A stretch of 64,000 bases of DNA. Source: Bacteroidota bacterium (GTDB taxonomy: Bacteria > Bacteroidota > Ignavibacteria > Ignavibacteriales > Ignavibacteriaceae). The notes beneath the pieces are model-generated. The model saw only the letters and a program-made list of their open reading frames with translations. It did no database searches and had not been told where the DNA came from. How positions within the stretch are numbered: position 1 is the first letter of the stretch; every line of letters starts with the position of its first letter. The position numbers and the translations under genes are program-made. The DNA lies in assembly GCA_021824145.1 (NCBI GenBank), contig JAKALM010000004.1, positions 124,001 through 188,000 on the forward strand. The letters are read 5' to 3'. Shown here piece after piece: positions 41,569 to 56,777 of the stretch.

Positions 41569-43917
41569 TTAGTTCAGCTCAGCTATTGTTATTCCATCAC
41601 CACCGAATTCAATCGGTGCAAAATAATATTTTTTAACACCGGAATGTTTCTTTAGTATTTCTTGAACCATTTTCTTCAAAACTCCGGTTCCTTTTCCGTG
41701 CAAAATTTCTATTCTATCAAGTCCTGATGAGTATGCTTCATCTACAAATTTAATTACTTCAAATTCCGCTTCTTCAGGTTTCTCTCCTCTAATATCTAAA
41801 CGATATTTTGGAGATGAAACGCTAAAACTATCAGCCGAAATTGTTTCAATTTTTTCTTTTATTTTTTTTGTAAGAACAAGATTCTTAAATTCAACTTGCA
41901 TTTTTACTTTGCCTACTTGAACCGTTGCTTTCTTTTTATCTTTAGAAATTTCGAGAATTTCTCCAATAGATTGTGTGTCCTTAATAGCAACAGAATTTCC
42001 GACAACAAAGTTATGGTTTTCTAAATTCAAATCAATATCTTCTTTAAAAAGAACTTTATTTTTTTCTTTTATTTCTTTTACAATATTCTGCGACTCTTTT
42101 ATCACTTCACTTTTTGCCTGCGACTCTTTTAGTTCTTTTATTACGTGTTCAATCTTTTTATTTATTCCTTTCAGATAATCATCCGCTTCTGATTTTGCTC
42201 GCTTCAAAATTTCTTTTTTCTCACGATCTAACTTTTCTATATTTTGTTTATATAAATTAGAAAGCCCGGCTAATCTGGAATTCTCAATTTCCATTTTTTT
42301 CAACTTCTCTTCCAGTTCCTGAGATTTCCTTTCAATTTCAACTAGAAAGTTTTCAACCTTATGTTTATCCTTATCAAGATATTCAGAAGCCAATTTTAAA
42401 AAGTCATCATTAAATCCGATTCTCTTTGCTATTTCAAAAGCATAGCTTGAACCTGGTATTCCTTGTTTGAATATGTAGGTCGGTTTTAAATTTTGAGTAT
42501 CAAATTCCATTGCTGCATTTTCAAATCCCGGAAGATCATGAGCTATTAATTTTAAACTGCCGTGATGTGTAGTTGCAAAAACTGTTGCATGCTTATCCCT
42601 CAAAGTAATTAATATTGAAGCAGCTAGCGCTGATCCTTCCGCTGGATCAGTTCCCGTTCCTATTTCATCTAATAAAATTAATGAATCCGCATCTGCATAC
42701 TTTAATATCAAATTAATATTTGAAAGATGCGAACTGAAAGTCGAAAGGTCATCTTCAATTGATTGAGTATCCCCAATGTCTAACAAAATAGTTTTAAAGA
42801 AATGAAAATTCGAATCTGGACTTGCTGGTATGTGAATTCCGGTTTGAACTAATAAAGTTAGCAAGCCAATTGTTTTAAGAACAACAGTTTTACCTCCGGT
42901 ATTTGGGCCTGTAATTAAAATAATATTTTTATCTGTTATTTTTACATTTAGAGGAATCGTGTTTTCTTTTCCAAATTTTTTAAGAAGAATTGGATGCCTG
43001 GAATCATGAATTTCAAAAGGTTTCTTTTTGTCAATCTCTGGAAATGATCCGACAACTTCAATTGAATAATTTGCTTTTGCAAAAATTGAATCAATCTCTG
43101 CTATTGTTAGTAAAGATTCTTTTAATTGGCTGCTTACTTCACCAATTCTTTTTGTAACTTCCCTAAGCAGTCTTTCTATTTCTCTTCTTTCGGCAAATGA
43201 TAATGAAACTATCTCATTGTTGAGCTCCAGTGTTTCTTCAGGCTCAATGTAAACAGTTTGCCCAGTTGAAGATTCTGAGTGGATAAATCCTCTAATGTGC
43301 CTCTTATGTTCTGCTTTTACAGGAATTACAATTCTTCCATCGCGCAGCGTCAGATACTCTTCACGCACAATATCTTTTTCTTCAAGAGATTTTATTATTC
43401 TATTTACTGACTTTATCAAATCATCATTTTTTATCCGAATATCTTTTCTAATTTCGGAAAGTTTTGCGCTTGCACTATCCTTAACTTCGCCGTTTTCATT
43501 AATTATTTTCTGAATGTAATGTTCAAATAGTTTATCAGTGAACAATCTTTCTGAAAAATCTTTTAGAAGCGGTGCTGTTTCATAATTTTGTTTTATATAA
43601 TGAATTAAATTTCTTGATATTATAGCAAGCTTTAGAATTTCTAAAATCTTCTTTACTTCTAAAATTGCACCTTCAATATTGCTGGTTGATATTGCTTCAT
43701 CAAGGAAAGGTAAATATTCTATTGGTGGCAAAGTATGCTTAATTAAAATTTCTTTTGCCTCACTTACTAGCTTGCCTTCCAATTCAATTTTTGATATTTC
43801 TAAAAATGGTTCAGAAGAAAGAATTTTTTCTTTGCCTTTTTCAGTTATGCAATACTTGGCAATGTATTGTAGAATTTTATTGTATTCTAATTTTTCAAGT
43901 ACGGTTGGAGAAATCAT
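41569..43917 (-). CDS. mutS2: endonuclease MutS2
   Basis: 782-residue MutS-family ATPase without the mismatch-recognition domains. Walker A ITGPNTGGKTVVLKTIGLL near residue 335, LLDEIGTGTDPAEGSALA (Walker B region), then a long coiled-coil (about 510-640), and a C-terminal Smr nuclease domain (LDIRGEKPEEAEFEVI, ILHGKGTGVLKKMV). MutS2 suppresses homologous recombination and acts in ribosome rescue in some bacteria. It overlaps cvpA by 1 nt. Confidence 0.95.
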   Translation of the reverse strand: MISPTVLEKLEYNKILQYIAKYCITEKGKEKILSSEPFLEISKIELEGKLVSEAKEILIKHTLPPIEYLPFLDEAISTSNIEGAILEVKKILEILKLAIISRNLIHYIKQNYETAPLLKDFSERLFTDKLFEHYIQKIINENGEVKDSASAKLSEIRKDIRIKNDDLIKSVNRIIKSLEEKDIVREEYLTLRDGRIVIPVKAEHKRHIRGFIHSESSTGQTVYIEPEETLELNNEIVSLSFAERREIERLLREVTKRIGEVSSQLKESLLTIAEIDSIFAKANYSIEVVGSFPEIDKKKPFEIHDSRHPILLKKFGKENTIPLNVKITDKNIILITGPNTGGKTVVLKTIGLLTLLVQTGIHIPASPDSNFHFFKTILLDIGDTQSIEDDLSTFSSHLSNINLILKYADADSLILLDEIGTGTDPAEGSALAASILITLRDKHATVFATTHHGSLKLIAHDLPGFENAAMEFDTQNLKPTYIFKQGIPGSSYAFEIAKRIGFNDDFLKLASEYLDKDKHKVENFLVEIERKSQELEEKLKKMEIENSRLAGLSNLYKQNIEKLDREKKEILKRAKSEADDYLKGINKKIEHVIKELKESQAKSEVIKESQNIVKEIKEKNKVLFKEDIDLNLENHNFVVGNSVAIKDTQSIGEILEISKDKKKATVQVGKVKMQVEFKNLVLTKKIKEKIETISADSFSVSSPKYRLDIRGEKPEEAEFEVIKFVDEAYSSGLDRIEILHGKGTGVLKKMVQEILKKHSGVKKYYFAPIEFGGDGITIAELN

Positions 43918-48407: not shown

Positions 48408-49253
48408 TTATATTTTAACTATCTCAACTCTTCTATTTTTTGCTCTGCCTTCTTCCGTTCTATTGTCCTCAATTGGTTTGCTGGCTCCCCATCCTTTTGA
48501 AGTTAATCTAGATTTATTAATGCCTAATTTTACTAATTCAGTCAATACAGTTTTTGCTCTGTTTTCAGACAAAGTTTGATTAGATGCATCGCTTCCAACA
48601 TTATCAGTATGACCTTCAATGCTGATTTTTAAATTGCTGTTTTGTTTTAACATTTCAGCAATCTGATTAACAATTTCCTCTGACTCAGGCTTAATATCAG
48701 CTTTGCCGGTTTCAAAATTTATATATAATGCGATGAAACCATCCTTAGTTAAAGCATCCATCATTTCGCTTGCTTGAATTTCTTGCTTCATTGGTTCCAT
48801 CTCAAGAATGTAAAGCGAGTAATGTTCAACTTCGTTTGCTGTCCCTCCAAAGCTGCCAATCTTTACCCAATAATCTTTTTCTTTTGTTGAAAGGTGAAAT
48901 GTGGCTTCCAGTTCCGCGCCTAAAGGATCGGTATTTTTATAAATCATTTTGCCGCCGTTTTTATTAATTGCATTTTCATAATTCTTAATTATTTGAAATG
49001 GACTTTTTGCTTTTTCACCGGCATCCGAATTAAAATAATAAGTAATCGTAAAAAGATTTCCTTCCTTATTTTCAGTTTTTTCACTGTTAATCCGAAGTGT
49101 AAGTTCATTATAGTTTTGTGAGCACTCTGAAATATAAAAGTTAGAAAGTCTTGTAAATAAAGGATGATCTTTACATCCCTCGGCATCATTTTGAGCAAAA
49201 GTTAATGATTTTATGGAAATTAACACTGCGAAAGCTATAATTATTTTATTCAT
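48408..49253 (-). CDS. OmpA-family protein
   Basis: 281-residue exported protein (signal MNKIIIAFAVLISIKSLTFA). The N-terminal domain (21-165) has HPLFTRLSNFYISECSQNYNELTLRI, seen in a group of Bacteroidota OmpA proteins. The C-terminal OmpA peptidoglycan-binding domain (about 172-281) has INFETGKADIKPESEEIVNQ, IEGHTDNVGSD, LSENRAKTV and NRRVEIVKI. It is the last gene of the exported-protein cluster and anchors to cell wall non-covalently. Confidence 0.9.
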   Translation of the reverse strand: MNKIIIAFAVLISIKSLTFAQNDAEGCKDHPLFTRLSNFYISECSQNYNELTLRINSEKTENKEGNLFTITYYFNSDAGEKAKSPFQIIKNYENAINKNGGKMIYKNTDPLGAELEATFHLSTKEKDYWVKIGSFGGTANEVEHYSLYILEMEPMKQEIQASEMMDALTKDGFIALYINFETGKADIKPESEEIVNQIAEMLKQNSNLKISIEGHTDNVGSDASNQTLSENRAKTVLTELVKLGINKSRLTSKGWGASKPIEDNRTEEGRAKNRRVEIVKI

Positions 49254-49296
49254 TTATCGACTTCCGATTAATTTAAATTAATTGAATTATATTTTT

Positions 49297-50313
49297 TTAT
49301 TTATCAATAACCGATAACAAACTATTTACATCAAACTCTCTCAAAAATCTTCCGATATGATACGTGCCGTCATTATTTTTAAGCTGTTCTTCCATTTCAT
49401 TTTCTATTATTCGCTTATCCACCGGACATTTGAAAGAAATTATTTGTATTGCTGATCTAGGTAAATTTTTATTCCAGTATTCCGGGTTTATTCGCATTAC
49501 CGGAACATTTGTATTTATCGAAATGCAACCATCAATTGAAGTCCCATCAAGATATTTATCTTTATCACTTTCAGATACATTTGAATATTCATCCTCTAAA
49601 AATTTAGTCATAAATTCCGATTGAATTTTATCCGGATGAAGTTTCCAAAAATCAATAAGCAAACTATAAACCTCTTTAACTTTCACAAGCAGCCAGTAAG
49701 CTGATCTATCTGGATTATAAACTATATAAACTTCATCAGCATATCTATCAATACCTCGAGCGATTGCTTCTTTATTTTTGGAAGTATAAAATAAGTCGCG
49801 AAGCCTTTCACCCGCTTTATTCCATTCATCATAATTGAAACCTGGCTTAGTTTGGTCTGTCGGCTTTGCAGTCGAATAGCCGAATCCATTATTCATAGAT
49901 GGTGGTACAATCCTGTTTACTTCTATGTCCCAGTGTGGTGGTTCGATTGTCCATTTGTATTCTTTGTTTTTCCTTACAGACCAAGAACAAAAATTAAAAG
50001 CAAGTTGACAAGGAATTCCATAACCGTTTCTTTTGTCATAAGATCTGCCGTACAAAGTAGCATCGCAATCAAATCCTTTTAAATCTTTCATTACTGGATT
50101 TTGATGAACAACTTCTGCAATTGCACAAAGCTTTTTGAAATTAGCATCTTTTTCTACTTTAGTAAAATCGCTTCCTCCCAATCCATATACGCTCCAATTT
50201 ACTATTTTGAATTTACCTGGTTTATCAAGAAGAAGTTTTGAATCTTGTGCAAAACTATTCAGCGAAAAAAGAATTAGAATGATTCCAGTGGCTCGATTGG
50301 TTATGTATCTCAT
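49297..50313 (-). CDS. hypothetical exported protein
   Basis: 338 residues with a signal peptide (RATGIILILFSLNSFAQ). No family recognised. The mature part is rich in aromatic residues and has several Cys (CAIAE, FDCDATL, GIPCQLAFNFCSW, DGCISI, FKCP), which could form disulfides. It lies between the OmpA gene (43 nt) and the DUF4412-like gene (53 nt), on the same strand and with a similar codon choice. Confidence 0.75.
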   Translation of the reverse strand: MRYITNRATGIILILFSLNSFAQDSKLLLDKPGKFKIVNWSVYGLGGSDFTKVEKDANFKKLCAIAEVVHQNPVMKDLKGFDCDATLYGRSYDKRNGYGIPCQLAFNFCSWSVRKNKEYKWTIEPPHWDIEVNRIVPPSMNNGFGYSTAKPTDQTKPGFNYDEWNKAGERLRDLFYTSKNKEAIARGIDRYADEVYIVYNPDRSAYWLLVKVKEVYSLLIDFWKLHPDKIQSEFMTKFLEDEYSNVSESDKDKYLDGTSIDGCISINTNVPVMRINPEYWNKNLPRSAIQIISFKCPVDKRIIENEMEEQLKNNDGTYHIGRFLREFDVNSLLSVIDK

Positions 50314-50366
50314 ATTTTTTTTTCATAAAATAAATCTAAAAAATGAAGTTTAATAAATTTCATTAT

Positions 50367-51077
50367 TCAGTTCTGATTATTTTCATTCTTCAGATATCCT
50401 TCTGAAACTTCAAATAAAGATGTTGCTGGTTTTTCCAAACTGAATTCAGCGGCTTCCATAATCTCAGTTAATTTACCGTTTTGCCAAAGCTCTGTCTTTA
50501 AAATCGCATTTAGATTCTTAGCAACAAATAATTTAGATGCCCACGTTTCCTTATTAAATGTTTGAACAATTTCATAAATATCACAGTCATAATTTAACAG
50601 CTTTGTTTCCCCGATTATTTTTGAGTGAGGTATACTGTCTGCAAAGACTATAGAACATGAGTGTTCCCAAGGTTCTTGCCTCAGTGGAACTTCAAAATAA
50701 GTTTTAGAAGGAGGATCCATTGACCAGACGAGTTTTTTATCATTTCTTAAAATCTCAATTGTATAAGGTTCCGGATTTGTAATATTTTCTGCCTGCATTT
50801 TTACTTCGCTGTTTACTTGGCCGGTAGAATTTGCTCTGTCACTTAAATCAGCATTAGATTCTGCTGTCGCGCTTATTTTGTACTGGACGGTTGAAATATA
50901 TTCAGACCTGAATTTGTCACCGTCGCGCATATAATATTTTATCATTCGGAAAACTGTACTATCGGGATTTTTATAGGTATAATTGATCATGTAGTTCTTA
51001 GGTTGAGCATGACCTGCTATAATGTAAGACATCAGCATCAATGAAATCAAAAACAAAAATAACTTAGCATTAGACAT
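50367..51077 (-). CDS. DUF4412-like exported protein
   Basis: 236 residues with signal peptide (AKLFLFLISLMLMSYIIAGHAQ). The arrangement YYMRDGDKFRSEYIS, then IEILRNDKKLVWSMDPPSKTYFEVPL, and later LLNYDCDIYEIVQ and LFVAKNLNAILKTEL, fits DUF4412, a LolA-like fold for exported proteins of unknown function. Assignment is from pattern memory only. Confidence 0.75.
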   Translation of the reverse strand: MSNAKLFLFLISLMLMSYIIAGHAQPKNYMINYTYKNPDSTVFRMIKYYMRDGDKFRSEYISTVQYKISATAESNADLSDRANSTGQVNSEVKMQAENITNPEPYTIEILRNDKKLVWSMDPPSKTYFEVPLRQEPWEHSCSIVFADSIPHSKIIGETKLLNYDCDIYEIVQTFNKETWASKLFVAKNLNAILKTELWQNGKLTEIMEAAEFSLEKPATSLFEVSEGYLKNENNQN

Positions 51078-51156
51078 TTAAAACCTCCCGTAAATATTTT
51101 CCCATTTAAATTGAATAATTATTTCCATGCCAAATCTTTCAGATAAATCAGATCAG

Positions 51157-52314
51157 TTAATCTCTTGTCAAATTAAACTCATAAGTTATGGTAGATTCTT
51201 CATTGGTATTCGGATTAGTTCTTTTTATAGTTTCTTTTTGTGATAATATTTTATCATGAGCATTTCCTGTAAATGGGCCAAATATTTCATTTACACCTTC
51301 ATCAATTTTATTTGTAATAGTTTCTGGATTATTGTTAATGTTGTTGCAAACACCTTCTGCATGAACTTCTTTTTTTGTTTTCTTCTCACCTTGGGTCGAT
51401 GCCGCTTTAACTCTAATTGTATATGTGCCATTATCAAGAAATGTAATTTCTGCACGCGCATCATCTACTTTTATTCCGTAGCTTTCACTCTCATTCGAAA
51501 GTCCTTGCAGCGTGGAATAAGTCGTAGTCTTTGCGGAATAAGTCCTTGGGCCTTGTTTATTCGGTGAACATTCATAACATGAGTTTTGTTCTTCAATTTT
51601 CATTTCTTCCGAAAGATTGAAATTTACATTACCCTTAGCCGCATATTTATCTGTCTTCTCAATCGTCCAGTTATTTTCTGAATAATTATTTATGTCGATC
51701 GTCTTACGGTACATTCCATCACTTTCATTGCAGTATACTGGATACTCTTCTTTTTTATTATCCTTCAACGTAGATATTATATTTATGGTAATCGGTCCGG
51801 TGAATGGACAAATTTCGAATGTCTTCAAACCATCTATCAACTGTTTTGAAATATTTTCGCAGGAATTATTGTCAATGCTATTTAAAGATAGGCTTGCAGT
51901 CGCTATTGACAATGGTTTAGCATTCCTTGAATCCATAATTGTTATTTTGATTAAAGTATTGTCTTTAAATACTTGCATTTTTAAACTAACCAAATAATCG
52001 CATGACATATCTTTTGCAATGTTGCCTATTGAGGCTTGCAATTCATCATTAGGAATATCGTTCAATAAACATATTTTTCTCAAATCGTCAAGTCTTTGAG
52101 TTATTGAATTAAATGTATTTATTTCAGCGCACGAATAAACTTCTTGGATCTTTTTTGCAACTATATCTTCAAGCAAATACATTTTATCATTTGCGGTCAA
52201 TATTAAAGATGAATCGCAGATAACATTGTATGTTAAATAAAACCGCGGCTTCTTAGCTTGTGTTACTTCTGAGCTGATTAGTATAAATAACAGAATTATA
52301 AATATTTTTTTCAT
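51157..52314 (-). CDS. hypothetical exported protein, TolB/CsgG-like N-terminus suspected
   Basis: 385 residues with signal peptide (KIFIILLFILISSEVTQA). The first half (20-170) alternates helices and strands; the stretch ELQASIGNIAKDMSCDYLVS resembles the N-terminal domain of TolB/CsgG/LpoB-type periplasmic proteins, but this is only suspected. The second half is beta-rich, with Thr, Asn and a C-terminal strand pair. A CSPNKQGP Cys pair (CYEC) stands near 250. It overlaps the LRR gene by 4 nt, so the two are translationally coupled. Confidence 0.75.
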   Translation of the reverse strand: MKKIFIILLFILISSEVTQAKKPRFYLTYNVICDSSLILTANDKMYLLEDIVAKKIQEVYSCAEINTFNSITQRLDDLRKICLLNDIPNDELQASIGNIAKDMSCDYLVSLKMQVFKDNTLIKITIMDSRNAKPLSIATASLSLNSIDNNSCENISKQLIDGLKTFEICPFTGPITINIISTLKDNKKEEYPVYCNESDGMYRKTIDINNYSENNWTIEKTDKYAAKGNVNFNLSEEMKIEEQNSCYECSPNKQGPRTYSAKTTTYSTLQGLSNESESYGIKVDDARAEITFLDNGTYTIRVKAASTQGEKKTKKEVHAEGVCNNINNNPETITNKIDEGVNEIFGPFTGNAHDKILSQKETIKRTNPNTNEESTITYEFNLTRD

Positions 52315-53213
52315 TGCAATAATATTTTACAGTTAGGTAATTGTTGTTTAATTTGATCGATTTCGCTTTGGGCAATGCTTGTTTTCCCAATACCAAGTGT
52401 ATCCAGTTGTTTCAGCTTACTTATCGTTGGTAGTAATGTTGTAATTGGATTAATATCAACATAAAGAGTATTTAATTTGATAAAAGTACCGACTTCAGAC
52501 GGAAGCATCTTTAATTGATTATTTATAATTGAAAGTAGAGTAAGATTCTTAAACTTACCGACTTGTTTAGGTATTTCAGTAACAAAATTTTTGAAATTAA
52601 TTATGTACAGTTCTTGAAGTGGATAATTTTTTGCTCTAGTTAATAAGTCGTCAAGATTTACCGGGGCACCGAATTTTCCACCTGTTATTACTAAGGTTTT
52701 AATCGACTTAAATTTATCCATTTGATCAATCGTCCGCTGGACCGTATTTAGCGACATATCAATAACAAGCAGCGTCATTTCATCTAGATAATCCTGACTT
52801 TTTATATTCGGCGATTCATCATCTTTATATTCTTCAATAATTTCTTCTCTTACTGGCTTGCCTAACAAAATATCTGCATCTTCTCCTTTTGATGCTGCTT
52901 CCATCATCTGTTTCCAAAGTCCAAGTTTGTAATCAACATTTTTTTCTTCCTCGCTTTTATCTATTTGTTGATCTTTTTGAGTATTTTGATTTTTCCCTGA
53001 CAACATTAATTGTCTTGCCAACTTTCTAATTTCTTCATTAGCTTTTTTTGCTGCTTCTGCATTATCCCAATTTGTACTTTGCCTTATTTTCGCCATCTTT
53101 TGCCTAATTTGACTTGGAGATAACTGCTGGGCAGCCAAACTTCCCAATAAGATAAAGCAGAGCAAAAATATTTTTCCACAAATAGATTTTTTATATTTAT
53201 TTATGCTTGTCAT
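52311..53213 (-). CDS. exported leucine-rich-repeat protein
   Basis: 300 residues. Signal peptide (KIFLLCFILLGSLAAQ), then a charged helical segment (about 34-115) and leucine-rich repeats from about residue 165: KSIKTLVITGG, PLQELYIINFKNF, KNLTLLSIINNQLKMLPSEV, IKLNTLYVDINPI, KQLDTLGIGKTSI. LRRs commonly bind protein partners. It overlaps the next gene by 4 nt. No enzymatic domain is visible. Confidence 0.85.
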   Translation of the reverse strand: MTSINKYKKSICGKIFLLCFILLGSLAAQQLSPSQIRQKMAKIRQSTNWDNAEAAKKANEEIRKLARQLMLSGKNQNTQKDQQIDKSEEEKNVDYKLGLWKQMMEAASKGEDADILLGKPVREEIIEEYKDDESPNIKSQDYLDEMTLLVIDMSLNTVQRTIDQMDKFKSIKTLVITGGKFGAPVNLDDLLTRAKNYPLQELYIINFKNFVTEIPKQVGKFKNLTLLSIINNQLKMLPSEVGTFIKLNTLYVDINPITTLLPTISKLKQLDTLGIGKTSIAQSEIDQIKQQLPNCKILLQ

Positions 53214-53236
53214 ACTGTTTAATATTTTTTAAATAA

Positions 53237-54214
53237 TTAGTCTTTTAACAAATTGTACTTGAACACTCCTTGCAGTAAATGGACATAATCAGCAATTTTT
53301 CCAATTCCAACCAAACCAGGTTCATGTTTCAAATCAACACCGGTTTGCAGTTTAGTTAATCTTGAAGAAATGGCTTCTATTCTATAGCAAACTGGCATAG
53401 AAGATTTTGTATACGACTCATATTTTTTTAGAATATCTATATACTTGGGAGTATATTTGCTGCAATATTTGTCCTTTTCTGTTTTTATTTTATTTTCAAG
53501 TTCAGTCATTTTCTGCATGCCTTCATTATCTGTTTCTCCCATCAAGTCTAAAGCTTCCTTATCCCATTTGGCAATATTATCCAGCATTACTTTTGCGTCT
53601 GGGTCATTATCGATGTCTGATATTTGTTGAGCAAATTTAGATTCAATGGCTTTAAGGCTATCGATAATATGTTTTTGAATATTAGTAAGTTCATACAAAC
53701 TTTTATTCTGATACTGCTCTTCTTGACTTTTTTGAGGATCTGTTTGTACATCTGCCATTTTCTCAGTACCATAAGCTTCACCCCATGACTTTTTTCCCTC
53801 TTTGGTCATTTTATCAAATTTTTTTGTTTCATCAAGAGTCATGTTATGTTTGTTTTGAAGCGCTTTATTGATTATTTCATTTTTTTCTTCTTCAGTCATT
53901 CCTTCTTCGTTTTGTAATTTTTTTATGTCATCATTCGAAAGCCCATACTGCGATGCTACATTATTCAATGCTTGCTGCTCTTCGGTAGAAGAATTAGCGT
54001 CTATTTCTTCGTTTCGCCTTGCAATTTCATTATCAATTAATTGCATTATAGTATCAATGCGGCTTATGTATTGATTGCGTTCAGCCATTTTCATTGAACA
54101 TACATTATTAGGAATAGCTGGAAGTATTCCGATAAATGCCTCCGGGGTAACCTGTGCAAAAGAAACTGATGCCCCTAATATTAAAACTGCTGCAAGCATA
54201 AATGTTTTTTTCAT
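53237..54214 (-). CDS. exported coiled-coil protein, paralogue 1
   Basis: 325 residues from ATG 54214, where the signal peptide MKKTFMLAAVLILGASVSFA begins; an upstream ATG at 54250 would add 12 residues before it. The mature part is almost wholly helical and charged. It shares with the neighbouring gene the blocks IPNNVCSM (near 35), YGLSNDDIKKLQ, KMTKEGKKSWGEAYGTEKMA and YCSKYTPKYIDILKKY. The fold and function are unknown. It lies 23 nt before the LRR gene. Confidence 0.8.
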   Translation of the reverse strand: MKKTFMLAAVLILGASVSFAQVTPEAFIGILPAIPNNVCSMKMAERNQYISRIDTIMQLIDNEIARRNEEIDANSSTEEQQALNNVASQYGLSNDDIKKLQNEEGMTEEEKNEIINKALQNKHNMTLDETKKFDKMTKEGKKSWGEAYGTEKMADVQTDPQKSQEEQYQNKSLYELTNIQKHIIDSLKAIESKFAQQISDIDNDPDAKVMLDNIAKWDKEALDLMGETDNEGMQKMTELENKIKTEKDKYCSKYTPKYIDILKKYESYTKSSMPVCYRIEAISSRLTKLQTGVDLKHEPGLVGIGKIADYVHLLQGVFKYNLLKD

Positions 54215-54311
54215 TTTATAATTTTCCAATTGTAATAAAATATTTCTCATTTAATTAATTCTTAGTTCTATTTTTACTTAATAATTATTTGAAGTTCTTC
54301 CATTATTTATT

Positions 54312-54401
54312 TTAATGTCCAAAATCCCACTTATAATTACCTTCGATTTTTTCCCAACGAATTTCTATTCTGTACTTTACTATTTGATCATTGCAAATCA
54401 T
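54312..54401 (-). other. out-of-frame coding-like tail behind paralogue 2
   Basis: A 29-codon frame opens inside the end of the paralogue-2 gene and runs to TAA at 54312-54314. Its reading (IVKYRIEIRWEKIEG then NYKWDFGH) looks like protein. It is one nt off (+1) from paralogue 2, so the gene may carry a frameshift, use programmed frameshifting, or the tail may be chance. Confidence 0.35.
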
Positions 54402-55395
54402 GTTCTGGGAAAGTATAATTAACATATTTAAAAGAATTTAACAGCAAACTTGCATATGATTTAACTGCACTTAATTGATATAATCCAGGCGAGGTAAATC
54501 CTTTGGTCGTTTCTAAAGTTGTTTTGTTCAATTCATCATCTATTTCTTCTAACCGCTTATAATCCGGCATAAACTTATTTAAAGATGATAAACACTCTCC
54601 AAGAATATCCATATAAATTGGCGTAAGTTTATTGCAATATATTTTTTCGTAACTCCGAATTTCATTTTGTATGTTTTTTGCTTCTTCTTCGGAAGGGCCA
54701 GGTACATCATTTAGCTTTTTCAATAATGGCTCTCTTTGCCGTTCAAGTATAACCGTTGCAGTTGAATCTTCTTTGTCCAATTCTGCAAGTCTGTTCATGT
54801 ATTTTTTGTCAGAAGCATAAATTCTATCAAGGATCTGTTTTTGTTCTTGAACTAGATCAAACATTTTTTTATCCTTTACCATTTTTTTCTCCGCCTTTAT
54901 CTGCTCTTCTGTTTTACTTGAATCCGAATTACTGCTCATGATTGCCATCTGTTCAGTCGAATAACCTTCAGCCCAGGCTTTTTTCCCTTCCTTGCTCATT
55001 TTTTTTAACTTTTTTACTTCATCCATGGAAATTCCGGTTTTCTCCCGAAGCATTTTATCTGCAATTGCTCTTTTTTCTTCCTTACTCAGTTTTTTCTGTT
55101 TTAGCTTTTGTACATCAGAATTAGTCAAGCCGTACTCTTCAGCCATATTTTTTTCAATCTGACTTTTGGAATTTTCTATATCACTCTCAACAGATTTTTT
55201 CTTAGAAGAGATTACCTTTTGTATATCTTTTAATACTAGATTTATCTGATTCAGATATTTCTGCTTTTGTTCGTCCCTCATAGAACAAGCATCAGAAGGA
55301 ACGCCGGGAATTCTGCCAAGAAACTCATAAGCACTTTGCGCATTATTTTGTGAAGCAAACAAAATTATAATTGCAATAACAGAAAAACTTTTCAT
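54388..55395 (-). CDS. exported coiled-coil protein, paralogue 2
   Basis: 335 residues with signal peptide (SFSVIAIIILFASQNNAQ). It shares IPSDACSM-type, YGLTNSDVQKLKQKK, KMSKEGKKAWAEGYSTEQMA and YCNKLTPIYMDIL blocks with paralogue 1 in the same order, so the two arose by tandem duplication. Most of the sequence is predicted helix/coiled coil, Lys/Glu-rich. The final residues (YTFPEHDLQ) are followed by a coding-like tail in another frame (54312-54401). The two conserved Cys could form a disulfide. Confidence 0.8.
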   Translation of the reverse strand: MKSFSVIAIIILFASQNNAQSAYEFLGRIPGVPSDACSMRDEQKQKYLNQINLVLKDIQKVISSKKKSVESDIENSKSQIEKNMAEEYGLTNSDVQKLKQKKLSKEEKRAIADKMLREKTGISMDEVKKLKKMSKEGKKAWAEGYSTEQMAIMSSNSDSSKTEEQIKAEKKMVKDKKMFDLVQEQKQILDRIYASDKKYMNRLAELDKEDSTATVILERQREPLLKKLNDVPGPSEEEAKNIQNEIRSYEKIYCNKLTPIYMDILGECLSSLNKFMPDYKRLEEIDDELNKTTLETTKGFTSPGLYQLSAVKSYASLLLNSFKYVNYTFPEHDLQ

Positions 55396-55484
55396 AATAC
55401 AATTCCCTATTTCTGTTTATGAATCTAAAATTTTATCTCGGGATACTATTATTCTGCGTTAAATTTCAGTATCCAGAATCCAGA

Positions 55485-56777
55485 CTATATCTTTATAAAT
55501 TCAACTCTTCTATTTAAAGCTTTGTTAACAGCTGAATCGTTTTTCGCAACCGGTTCATTTTCGCCTTTACCATCAGTTTCAATTCTTGCTTCTTCAATAT
55601 TAAAATCTTTGACTAAAGAATTTTTAACAGATGCGGCGCGGCGCTTAGATAAATCTAAATTTGAATTATTATCTCCGTCAGAATCTGTATGCCCGACTAT
55701 TTTAATCTTGACATCAGGATTGTCTTTTAATATTGTTGCAATTTCTTTTATAGATGGATATGATTCTGGTTTAACAACATCTTTATTCACATCAAAGTAA
55801 ATTCCGTAGCTTATCAGCTTGCCTTCTGTAAGAAGCTTGCTTCTCATATCTGGCGCGCCAACAGCAATTCGAATATTACTAATCATTGCAGCACCATTTT
55901 CAAATCTAATCCTATCAATTTTTACACAATCTGTTGGTAAACCCTTAGGAAGATCGAACAATTTATTCTGATCTTGATATAAACGAATTCTTGACTTCTG
56001 AATCCAAATTGCAATATGATATTTTTTGTTTTCTTTTTGATATACTTCTTTATCATTTGAATAACTGCTTAAATCTACACCACGGCATTCACTCTTTAAA
56101 AACCATGTATTAAAGGATGGCCTTCCAATTGATTCAACAGCAAATTGAAATCCGCCCATACCTGGAGCAGTACCAGCGTCCCATGCTCTTACATTTTTTG
56201 CTTGCATTAATCGCATATGCCAGCCTGCCATTCTTTTGTCATTCCCTTGAATTGGTATAACATCATATTCAATTGTGTAATTATCTGGTAGTTGAAGTAA
56301 AGCATCTGTCCAAATTGTTTCTCTGCAATTAAATCTCATCCAATGCCCGGGAGCTAAATTTGTAGTTACAACTTCAGCTGATCCGTTTGTATTCCATAAA
56401 GCCGGAAAATCACCAACTGCATCCTGACTGAAATCCTCAAAGAAGATGACTTTTTCTCCCGGTATAAAATCAAATTTTGAATTAATTATTGCTTGCGGAG
56501 TGTTATCAATCTCTTTAGTGGTAGTAATATTTTTTTGTTTTTCAATTGAATTTGTGGAATCAGCATTTTTCTTTTCACCTTTACCGGTAAGCTGCTTTTC
56601 AACTTCATCATAAGCCTTCTCAACACCTTTATTTATTTTATCTCCTGCTCTTTTCTCCCCTTCTTTTTTAACTTTCTCTTCTGCTTTCTTTTTCAATTTA
56701 TCTAAAAATTGTGCTTGCGCTGTTTGAGTTAACCCGAATGCAAATATTAATGCGAAAATAAATAATAACCTTTTCAT
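55485..56777 (-). CDS. OmpA-family protein with N-terminal coiled coil and lectin-like domain
   Basis: 430 residues from ATG 56777, chosen for its GAGGAG ribosome-binding site 7 nt upstream; the signal peptide follows (KRLLFIFALIFAFGLTQTAQA). Residues about 20-75 are a Lys/Glu-rich coiled coil. Residues about 105-300 include VIFFEDFSQDAVGDFPALW and YTIEYDVIPI, a concanavalin/LamG-like beta-sandwich pattern. The C-terminal OmpA domain (about 315-430) has IYFDVNKDVVKPESYPSI, IVGHTDSDGDNNSN, LSKRRAASVKNSL and NRRVEFIKI. It is the first gene of the exported-protein cluster. Confidence 0.88.
   Translation of the reverse strand: MKRLLFIFALIFAFGLTQTAQAQFLDKLKKKAEEKVKKEGEKRAGDKINKGVEKAYDEVEKQLTGKGEKKNADSTNSIEKQKNITTTKEIDNTPQAIINSKFDFIPGEKVIFFEDFSQDAVGDFPALWNTNGSAEVVTTNLAPGHWMRFNCRETIWTDALLQLPDNYTIEYDVIPIQGNDKRMAGWHMRLMQAKNVRAWDAGTAPGMGGFQFAVESIGRPSFNTWFLKSECRGVDLSSYSNDKEVYQKENKKYHIAIWIQKSRIRLYQDQNKLFDLPKGLPTDCVKIDRIRFENGAAMISNIRIAVGAPDMRSKLLTEGKLISYGIYFDVNKDVVKPESYPSIKEIATILKDNPDVKIKIVGHTDSDGDNNSNLDLSKRRAASVKNSLVKDFNIEEARIETDGKGENEPVAKNDSAVNKALNRRVEFIKI

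Follow-up and report, generated by a model that had tools for sequence, protein, structure and literature searches.

We asked whether eight consecutive genes for exported proteins in a Bacteroidota bacterium of the family Ignavibacteriaceae form one system or merely lie side by side. The genes are minus-strand open reading frames (ORFs) spanning positions 48408−56792 of a stretch of 64,000 nucleotides (contig JAKALM010000004.1, positions 124,001−188,000, assembly GCA_021824145.1), the whole of which is referred to here as the window. They were labeled g1 through g8 in order of transcription, and the family formed by g2 and g3 was called CC. An earlier note, made from the sequence of the window, had proposed that the genes belong together and had suggested a search for their order in other genomes. 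That search was performed, and the order of a core was found to be conserved, so the outcome named in the note as refuting, an order kept in no relative, did not occur. Comparison of the sequences showed a conserved module with a fixed-order core of four exported proteins, of which three, CC, g4, and g5, are inherited together.

In the window the core is headed by g1 (55485−56792, 435 aa), which encodes an exported protein with a C-terminal OmpA domain; an internal ATG at 56777, inside this frame, is a plausible alternative start. Downstream are g2 (54388−55395, 335 aa), whose product is helical and exported, and its paralogue g3 (53237−54250, 337 aa), which adjoins the gene for an exported leucine-rich-repeat (LRR) protein, g4 (52311−53213, 300 aa). 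The g4 protein has a conserved N-terminal segment of ∼45 residues. The last core gene, g5 (51157−52314, 385 aa), overlaps g4 by 4 nt and encodes an exported protein with a predicted TolB-N/LpoB/CsgG/PelC-type domain (residues 20−167) followed by a Cys-rich all-beta domain (residues 172−385).

The order g1-CC-g4-g5, with g1 ahead on the same strand, was found in 11 genomes: three from two genera of the window's family (the window, G001, and G1494) and, outside it, six from a single Bacteroidales family and two Chitinophagaceae (G330, G331, G333, G578, G579, G581, G582, and G587 together). This count includes four genomes with one to three genes between g1 and CC (G330, G331, G333, and G587), one with CC in two frames (G581), and one with a partial g1 frame (G579). 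In all 11 a g1-type gene heads the module. The minimal version, exactly g1-CC-g4-g5, was seen in G1494, which belongs to another genus of the window's family. The core was often followed by g7 (in the window 49297−50313, 338 aa), which encodes an exported protein of a family without a Pfam entry and which elsewhere is present in up to several copies. By these comparisons the conserved core is g1-CC-LRR-g5, often then g7, and g6, g8, and the second gene for CC seem to have been added locally. Because the core order recurs in distantly related bacteria, we conclude that the eight genes are an extended copy of a real conserved module.

The distribution of the module was patchy. A g4 profile scanned against 84,980 species found six loci, those of G001 and G011 in the window's genus, two in Bacteroidales, and two in Chitinophagaceae; three of the four outside loci had the core order, and the sequence of the fourth ended within the LRR gene after g1-CC. 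The g5 profile was run on the families of one Bacteroidales and one Chitinophagaceae genome, where it matched 11 of 16 genomes (one match weak and partial) and 3 of 244 (two matches weak), respectively; among 395 genomes spread across the Bacteroidales genome's phylum it matched 2, one of them weakly. A smaller g5 profile matched 1 of 296 genomes across the window's phylum. Within the window's family 7 of 80 genomes matched the g5 profile, and g5 was full-length in G000, G001, G011, and G1494. Three further genomes of the class were matched by the CC profile, at E 2.4e-5 to 9.9e-4; these matches covered only the N-terminal third and lay in loci without other module genes. A separate exported family (313−335 aa) with a weak N-terminal match to this profile was seen at L148 8618−9559, L149 8088−9095, and L150 8747−9688.

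Inheritance of the CC, LRR, and g5 genes was examined in full-length g5 copies with upstream sequence. A gene of the g4 family lay directly upstream of g5 in all 19 such copies, and a CC gene preceded the LRR gene in 15 of them; the four without CC have g7 beside the LRR-g5 pair. Left out of the 19 were L087, in which g5 begins 224 bases from the start of the contig, the first g5 of L086, which is truncated, L094 and L095 with only the N-terminal domain of g5, the distant g5-like genes of L097 and L098, a 150-aa frame in G590, and weak profile matches. In L094 (1419−2363) and L095 (7402−8343) the N-terminal domain is fused to a different C-terminal part, beside g7 genes. The 4-nt overlap of the LRR gene with g5 was found in 14 of 18 copies, and also in G1494.

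Locus L051 contains three CC-LRR-g5 triplets in tandem. For all three genes, the nearest relatives of the first triplet were in one or other Chitinophagaceae unit, those of the second in L086, and those of the third in L085. Because each triplet pairs with a different outside set, we conclude that CC, g4, and g5 were inherited together, which also fits a pairing of LRR and coiled-coil proteins suggested in the earlier note. Among 13 units compared (L088, with a split CC, and L160 excluded; the window unit represented by g3, not g2), the nearest unit was the same for CC, LRR, and g5 in 10, the exceptions being the first L051 unit, L089, and L091. Distances were correlated between the genes (Mantel r 0.71−0.77, 0 of 5000 permutations); shared ancestry, left in by the permutations, is part of this correlation. 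In a concatenated tree the four units of the window's family grouped together (support 93/94), the window unit was placed with that of G1494 and not with its own genus (99/97), and the first G330 triplet was placed with Chitinophagaceae (100/100).

One locus differs in the repeat protein. In L152 (genome G1227) the order is g1, CC, a gene for a 757-aa tetratricopeptide-repeat (TPR) protein (589−2862), and a g7 fragment. The TPR protein carries the N-terminal segment of g4 (E 1.4e-17 among 911 ORFs) and was the only non-LRR carrier of it among these ORFs. Because it replaces the LRR protein in L152, the repeat protein looks exchangeable, with the N-terminal segment as its apparent connector, at this one locus.

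Within the window's genus, sequence comparison indicated that the interior of the cluster is variable, with signs of loss, and that g1 and g8 often persist. Orthologues of g1 were found in 7 of 13 genomes (59−100% identity), CC in 4, and full-length g5 in 3. Neighborhoods ranged from g1-CC-g4-g5-g6-g8 in G001, through CC-g4-g5-g8 in G011 and CC-g8 in G009 (both with g1 on a different contig), to only g1-g8, 97 bases apart, in G012; g1 and g8 were on separate contigs in G004, and G006 had g1 without an adjacent g8. Remnants were present in three genomes: in G011 a g7 piece of 34 residues separates g5 from g8, in G006 45 g7-matching residues follow g1, and in G009 a g5 piece of 32 residues lies between CC and g8. 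The nearest of six genus genomes to the window is G012 (87% identity in the housekeeping protein described below), in which genes for a hybrid kinase/AraC regulator and a relative (32%) of ORF 46345−46923 come after g8, the gene order seen in the window. Because this flanking order downstream of g8 is the same, the sites in the window and G012 correspond, and the interior g2−g7 differs.

The gene at the downstream end, g8 (48408−49253, 281 aa), encodes an exported protein with a C-terminal OmpA domain. Its orthologues were 71−77% identical in five other genus genomes, and its N-terminal part was found in the window and five other loci, all of the same genus, among 36 loci searched, no genome-wide g8 search having been made. 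In G012 the gene is present with the interior missing, and in G004 it lies apart from g1. The earlier note had described the cluster as bracketed by OmpA-domain proteins and had taken this, with the LRR and coiled-coil parts inside, to suggest a wall-anchored envelope complex; because no g8 was seen outside the window's genus in these 36 loci, the bracketing is local and is rejected as a general design. Another apparent addition, g6 (50367−51077, 236 aa), encodes a DUF4412 protein and was present among the fetched loci in the window and G001 only. The match of the AraC-type ORF downstream of g8 in the window (47238−47981) to the 793-aa hybrid regulator of G012 is confined to the final 100 residues of the regulator (74%), and the ORF is probably a shortened copy of it. 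Directly upstream of g1 is the gene for a type IX-sorted repeat protein (57185−60283), a relative of which (31% over 1−817) lies on the same strand beside g1 in G009 (L041 9865−12486).

The module was probably moved laterally, as judged from its patchy distribution and the high identity of g1 to distant homologues compared with a housekeeping protein. The g1 protein was up to 62% identical to distant homologues (L085), and 68% in a partial frame (L090), vs. only 33−36% in the same distant lineages (and 68−87% within the genus) for the protein encoded at 41569−43917 of the window, which we take to be MutS2. Two results weigh against transfer: the seven g1 sequences of the genus form one supported clade, and the units of the window's family group together, as described above. 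For these reasons repeated recent transfers are not demonstrated. Base composition was rejected as evidence of transfer; the GC content at third codon positions (GC3) was 0.262 for the cluster vs. 0.190 (SD 0.035) for other ORFs, and that of the flanks at 45−63 kb was also raised (0.217−0.286), so the increase is not specific. Third-position GC was raised (0.217−0.309) across 45111−63230, a region extending beyond the eight genes, relative to most of the window. Carriage by plasmids or viruses was also rejected: g5 had no plasmid match, g4 had only partial generic LRR matches to plasmids, and g4 had no relative on a viral contig.

Most of what had been read from the letters of the eight genes was confirmed. 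By a crude rule, a signal peptide without a further membrane helix was called in all eight ORFs, vs. 10 of 44 other scored ORFs, in agreement with eight codirectional genes for exported proteins. The OmpA domains of the two end genes were well above the Pfam gathering cut-off of 27.2 bits (g1, E 8.4e-23, 81.0 bits; g8, E 1.9e-26, 92.7 bits); g1 also had a weak match to DUF6250 below cut-off. The DUF4412 assignment of g6 was narrowly above its cut-off (21.8 vs. 21.6 bits), and the orthologue in the same genus (L039) scored 32.4 bits. The tandem paralogues g2 and g3 are 33% identical, and an alignment of 19 CC sequences has two invariant Cys, residues 51 and 263 of g3. The LRR assignment of g4 stands with a qualification, as the LRR models matched (LRR_14, E 1.1e-8) below their curated cut-offs. 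A single transcript had been suggested in the earlier note from the shared direction, the short gaps, and the overlap; the gaps are 89, 137, 23, −4, 79, 53, and 43 nt from g1 to g8, and a single transcript finds no support in promoter- and terminator-like sites, which are taken up below. Of two proteins listed as unrecognized, g7 remained so, and g5 had no Pfam family at cut-off but does have a predicted TolB-N/LpoB/CsgG-like domain.

No Pfam family was assigned at cut-off to g2, g3, g5, or g7. Scans of the family alignments (19 CC, 18 g4, 21 g5, and 29 g7 sequences) gave weak, scattered matches for g5 (best Y_Y_Y, E 1.7e-4, in 3 of 21) and CC (best ZnuA, E 7.8e-4, in 2 of 19), and for g7 a best E of 0.025 in 1 of 29. 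Sequence searches of the PDB gave no match for g5, one weak match for g7, and two for CC.

The structure of g5 was predicted from 21 sequences (mean pLDDT 89.9). In this model residues 20−167 resembled HpaA (Z 10.4, rmsd 3.5, 117 residues aligned), periplasmic CadC (Z 10.3, rmsd 4.2, 121), TolB (Z 10.1, rmsd 3.8, 112), FlgT (Z 9.1, rmsd 4.8, 124), PelC (Z 8.6, rmsd 3.5, 108), CsgG (Z 8.2, rmsd 5.2, 137), and LpoB (Z 7.2, rmsd 4.5, 100). Foldseek ranked TolB first (E 9.7e-6) and gave LpoB a probability of 1.00 (E 2.8e-3). The predicted architecture of g5 is a TolB-N/LpoB/CsgG/PelC-type domain joined to a Cys-rich beta domain. Cysteines 62, 169, 195, 246, 249, and 323 were each present in 17 to 21 of the 21 members. 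The C-terminal domain was considered as an outer-membrane barrel and rejected, because its Z scores against barrels (up to 8.4) were near the stated background, no aromatic residue stood at the C terminus of any of the 21 members, and its Cys are conserved. No lipobox was found in g5 by eye; the signal ends TQA-KKP and the first Cys is residue 33. The model of g7 (pLDDT 87.2) gave a best Z of 3.9 and no chain at Z ≥5, which does not imply a new fold; Foldseek gave weak leads to PelC and CsgG.

These features were compared with known systems. Like Tol-Pal, the module has a TolB-N-type domain (in g5) and OmpA-domain anchors (g1 and g8, with a TIGR02802 match, as in Pal); unlike it, the 21 g5 members lack PD40 or TolB-type propeller repeats (Pfam scan, E up to 0.1), g5 lacks a lipobox, LRR and CC proteins are added, and, in the eight proteins as distinct from the unsearched rest of the genome, no TolQRA-like motor is present, since they have no further membrane helices. 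With the lipoproteins LpoB, CsgG, and PelC, g5 shares the superfold in its predicted model and differs in its missing lipobox, its added beta domain, and its LRR and CC partners. PelBC likewise places a superfold protein beside repeat proteins, the PelC ring touching the TPR domains of PelB (PMC12141448), whereas no large barrel protein is present among the eight, the largest having 435 aa. The flagellar H/T ring of the Vibrio type shares the FlgT superfold and, through the OmpA domains of g1 and g8, a MotY match; these matches were well below family cut-offs, and no flagellar gene was recognized in the neighborhoods read. A type IX C-terminal sorting domain, which would mark type IX substrates, was absent from the Pfam matches (up to E 1) of all eight proteins. 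For Zorya, the PADLOC matches to ZorB cover only the OmpA part, and no ZorA-like multi-pass partner is present among the eight. The gene set is apparently undescribed, as Tol-Pal, LpoB/CsgG/PelC, type IX substrates, and Zorya each fail a tested defining feature; these results do not show the mechanism to be new. In open-licence PMC literature, judged by titles and the starts of abstracts and with subscription journals mostly outside it, no paper on this gene set was found.

Genes beside the module suggested how it may be regulated. In seven loci (L052, L054, L085, L088, L091, L096, and L152) a g1-type gene has beside it a divergent gene for a histidine kinase, related to the one in L091 (TPR, HisKA_3), and in five of them the kinase was accompanied by a LuxR-type regulator; in L096 and L152 the sequence stops shortly after the kinase. 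A search of 29 other loci gave no such kinase match. Because this kinase, with its regulator, often adjoins the head gene in Bacteroidales and Chitinophagaceae, the complex proposed next would probably be made on demand.

Our best reading is a wall-anchored periplasmic complex with exchangeable repeat proteins, encoded beside a two-component system in Bacteroidota. OmpA domains bind peptidoglycan, and the OmpA domain of g1 (here that of g8 too) would tie the complex to the wall. The g5 protein, through its TolB-N/LpoB/CsgG-type domain, would be a docking and possibly oligomerizing platform; the repeat protein g4 would bind a variable ligand, held by its N-terminal segment and a cognate CC protein; and g7 would be a frequent accessory. 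Synthesis on demand might serve, for example, to reinforce or remodel the envelope. In favor of this reading are the core order in 11 genomes, the co-inheritance of CC, g4, and g5, the signal peptides of all eight proteins, the OmpA domains, the predicted superfold of g5, the divergent kinase beside g1, and the contact of PelC with TPR domains in PelBC. We infer both complex and role, and consider the chances about even that the cluster is an extended copy of a patchily distributed module that was probably moved laterally and that encodes a periplasmic protein complex. A bolder version, to which we assign a low probability, is a new envelope machine in which g5 forms a wall-anchored periplasmic ring or scaffold loaded with interchangeable LRR or TPR proteins, each with its cognate CC, the sets being stacked in one locus, exchanged between distant lineages, and placed under two-component control.

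Several results weigh against a periplasmic complex encoded by such a module. Its parts occur separately: four g5 copies lack CC (the second clusters of L085 and L096, L092, and L093), the two distant g5-like genes of L097 and L098 lack both LRR and CC, g7 occurs with only a g1-like gene in L145 and with no other core gene seen in L146 and L147, and g1 and g8 occur without the remaining genes. At L145 9542−11591 the g1-like gene adjoins g7, and CC, LRR, and g5 are absent from the stretch read. The kinase/LuxR pair is absent from the window, and promoter-like and terminator-like sites at 46−59 kb were at chance level (63 found vs. 62.0 expected and 5 vs. 5.2, respectively). The contribution of shared ancestry to the distance correlation counts here as well. 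Finally, residues 20−167 of g5 also resembled ribosome hibernation factors (Z 8.8, rmsd 3.2, 99 aligned); because the same superfold matches these, the fold alone gives g5 no function.

The strongest of the alternatives, although itself unlikely, is that the proteins act outside the cell, in a surface assembly, either matrix-like or anchored by OmpA, whose LRR, TPR, MORN, and Ig-like proteins serve in adhesion or ligand binding. The Bacteroidota gene runs do contain TPR proteins, one MORN-repeat protein, and one type IX-sorted protein (fn3-like and second MORN matches were below cut-off), and a type IX-sorted protein adjoins g1 in the window, as does its relative in G009; however, none of the eight has the sorting domain, and periplasmic proteins are among the nearest folds of g5. 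We think it improbable, more so than a surface assembly, that the module is an export device, with a g5 ring resembling that of PelC or CsgG and with repeat proteins that direct the polymer or protein being secreted. The superfold common to g5, PelC, and CsgG and the contact of PelC with TPR domains (PMC12141448) would fit such a device, but the missing lipobox and a C-terminal domain unlike an outer-membrane barrel would not, and no polymer synthase was recognized in the neighborhoods read, where not every neighbor was scanned. Equally doubtful is a conflict cassette, in which CC-LRR-g5 sets, having duplicated and diverged, would serve in competition or recognition: divergent tandem triplets, multiple g7 copies, and the patchy distribution could be read in this way, but PADLOC matched only the OmpA part of g1 and g8, and no toxin-like Pfam domain was found at cut-off in the eight proteins. 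A chance run of unrelated envelope genes, for which the occurrence of g1, g7, and g8 apart from the trio might speak, is very improbable and is rejected for the core by the order kept in other genera, Bacteroidales, and Chitinophagaceae, the co-inherited triplets, and the recurrent overlap, and it remains for g6 and g8.

Returning to the wall-anchored periplasmic complex, the analysis gathers eight "hypothetical exported proteins" into one defined module, which has a fixed core and a recognizable docking-type domain, and it delimits three protein families (CC, g5, and g7) whose members in the window fall below every Pfam cut-off. Partner choice, anchoring, and regulation become testable. If the reading is correct, cognate sets that are arranged in tandem and can exchange their repeat protein would be unusual in the design of a Gram-negative envelope.

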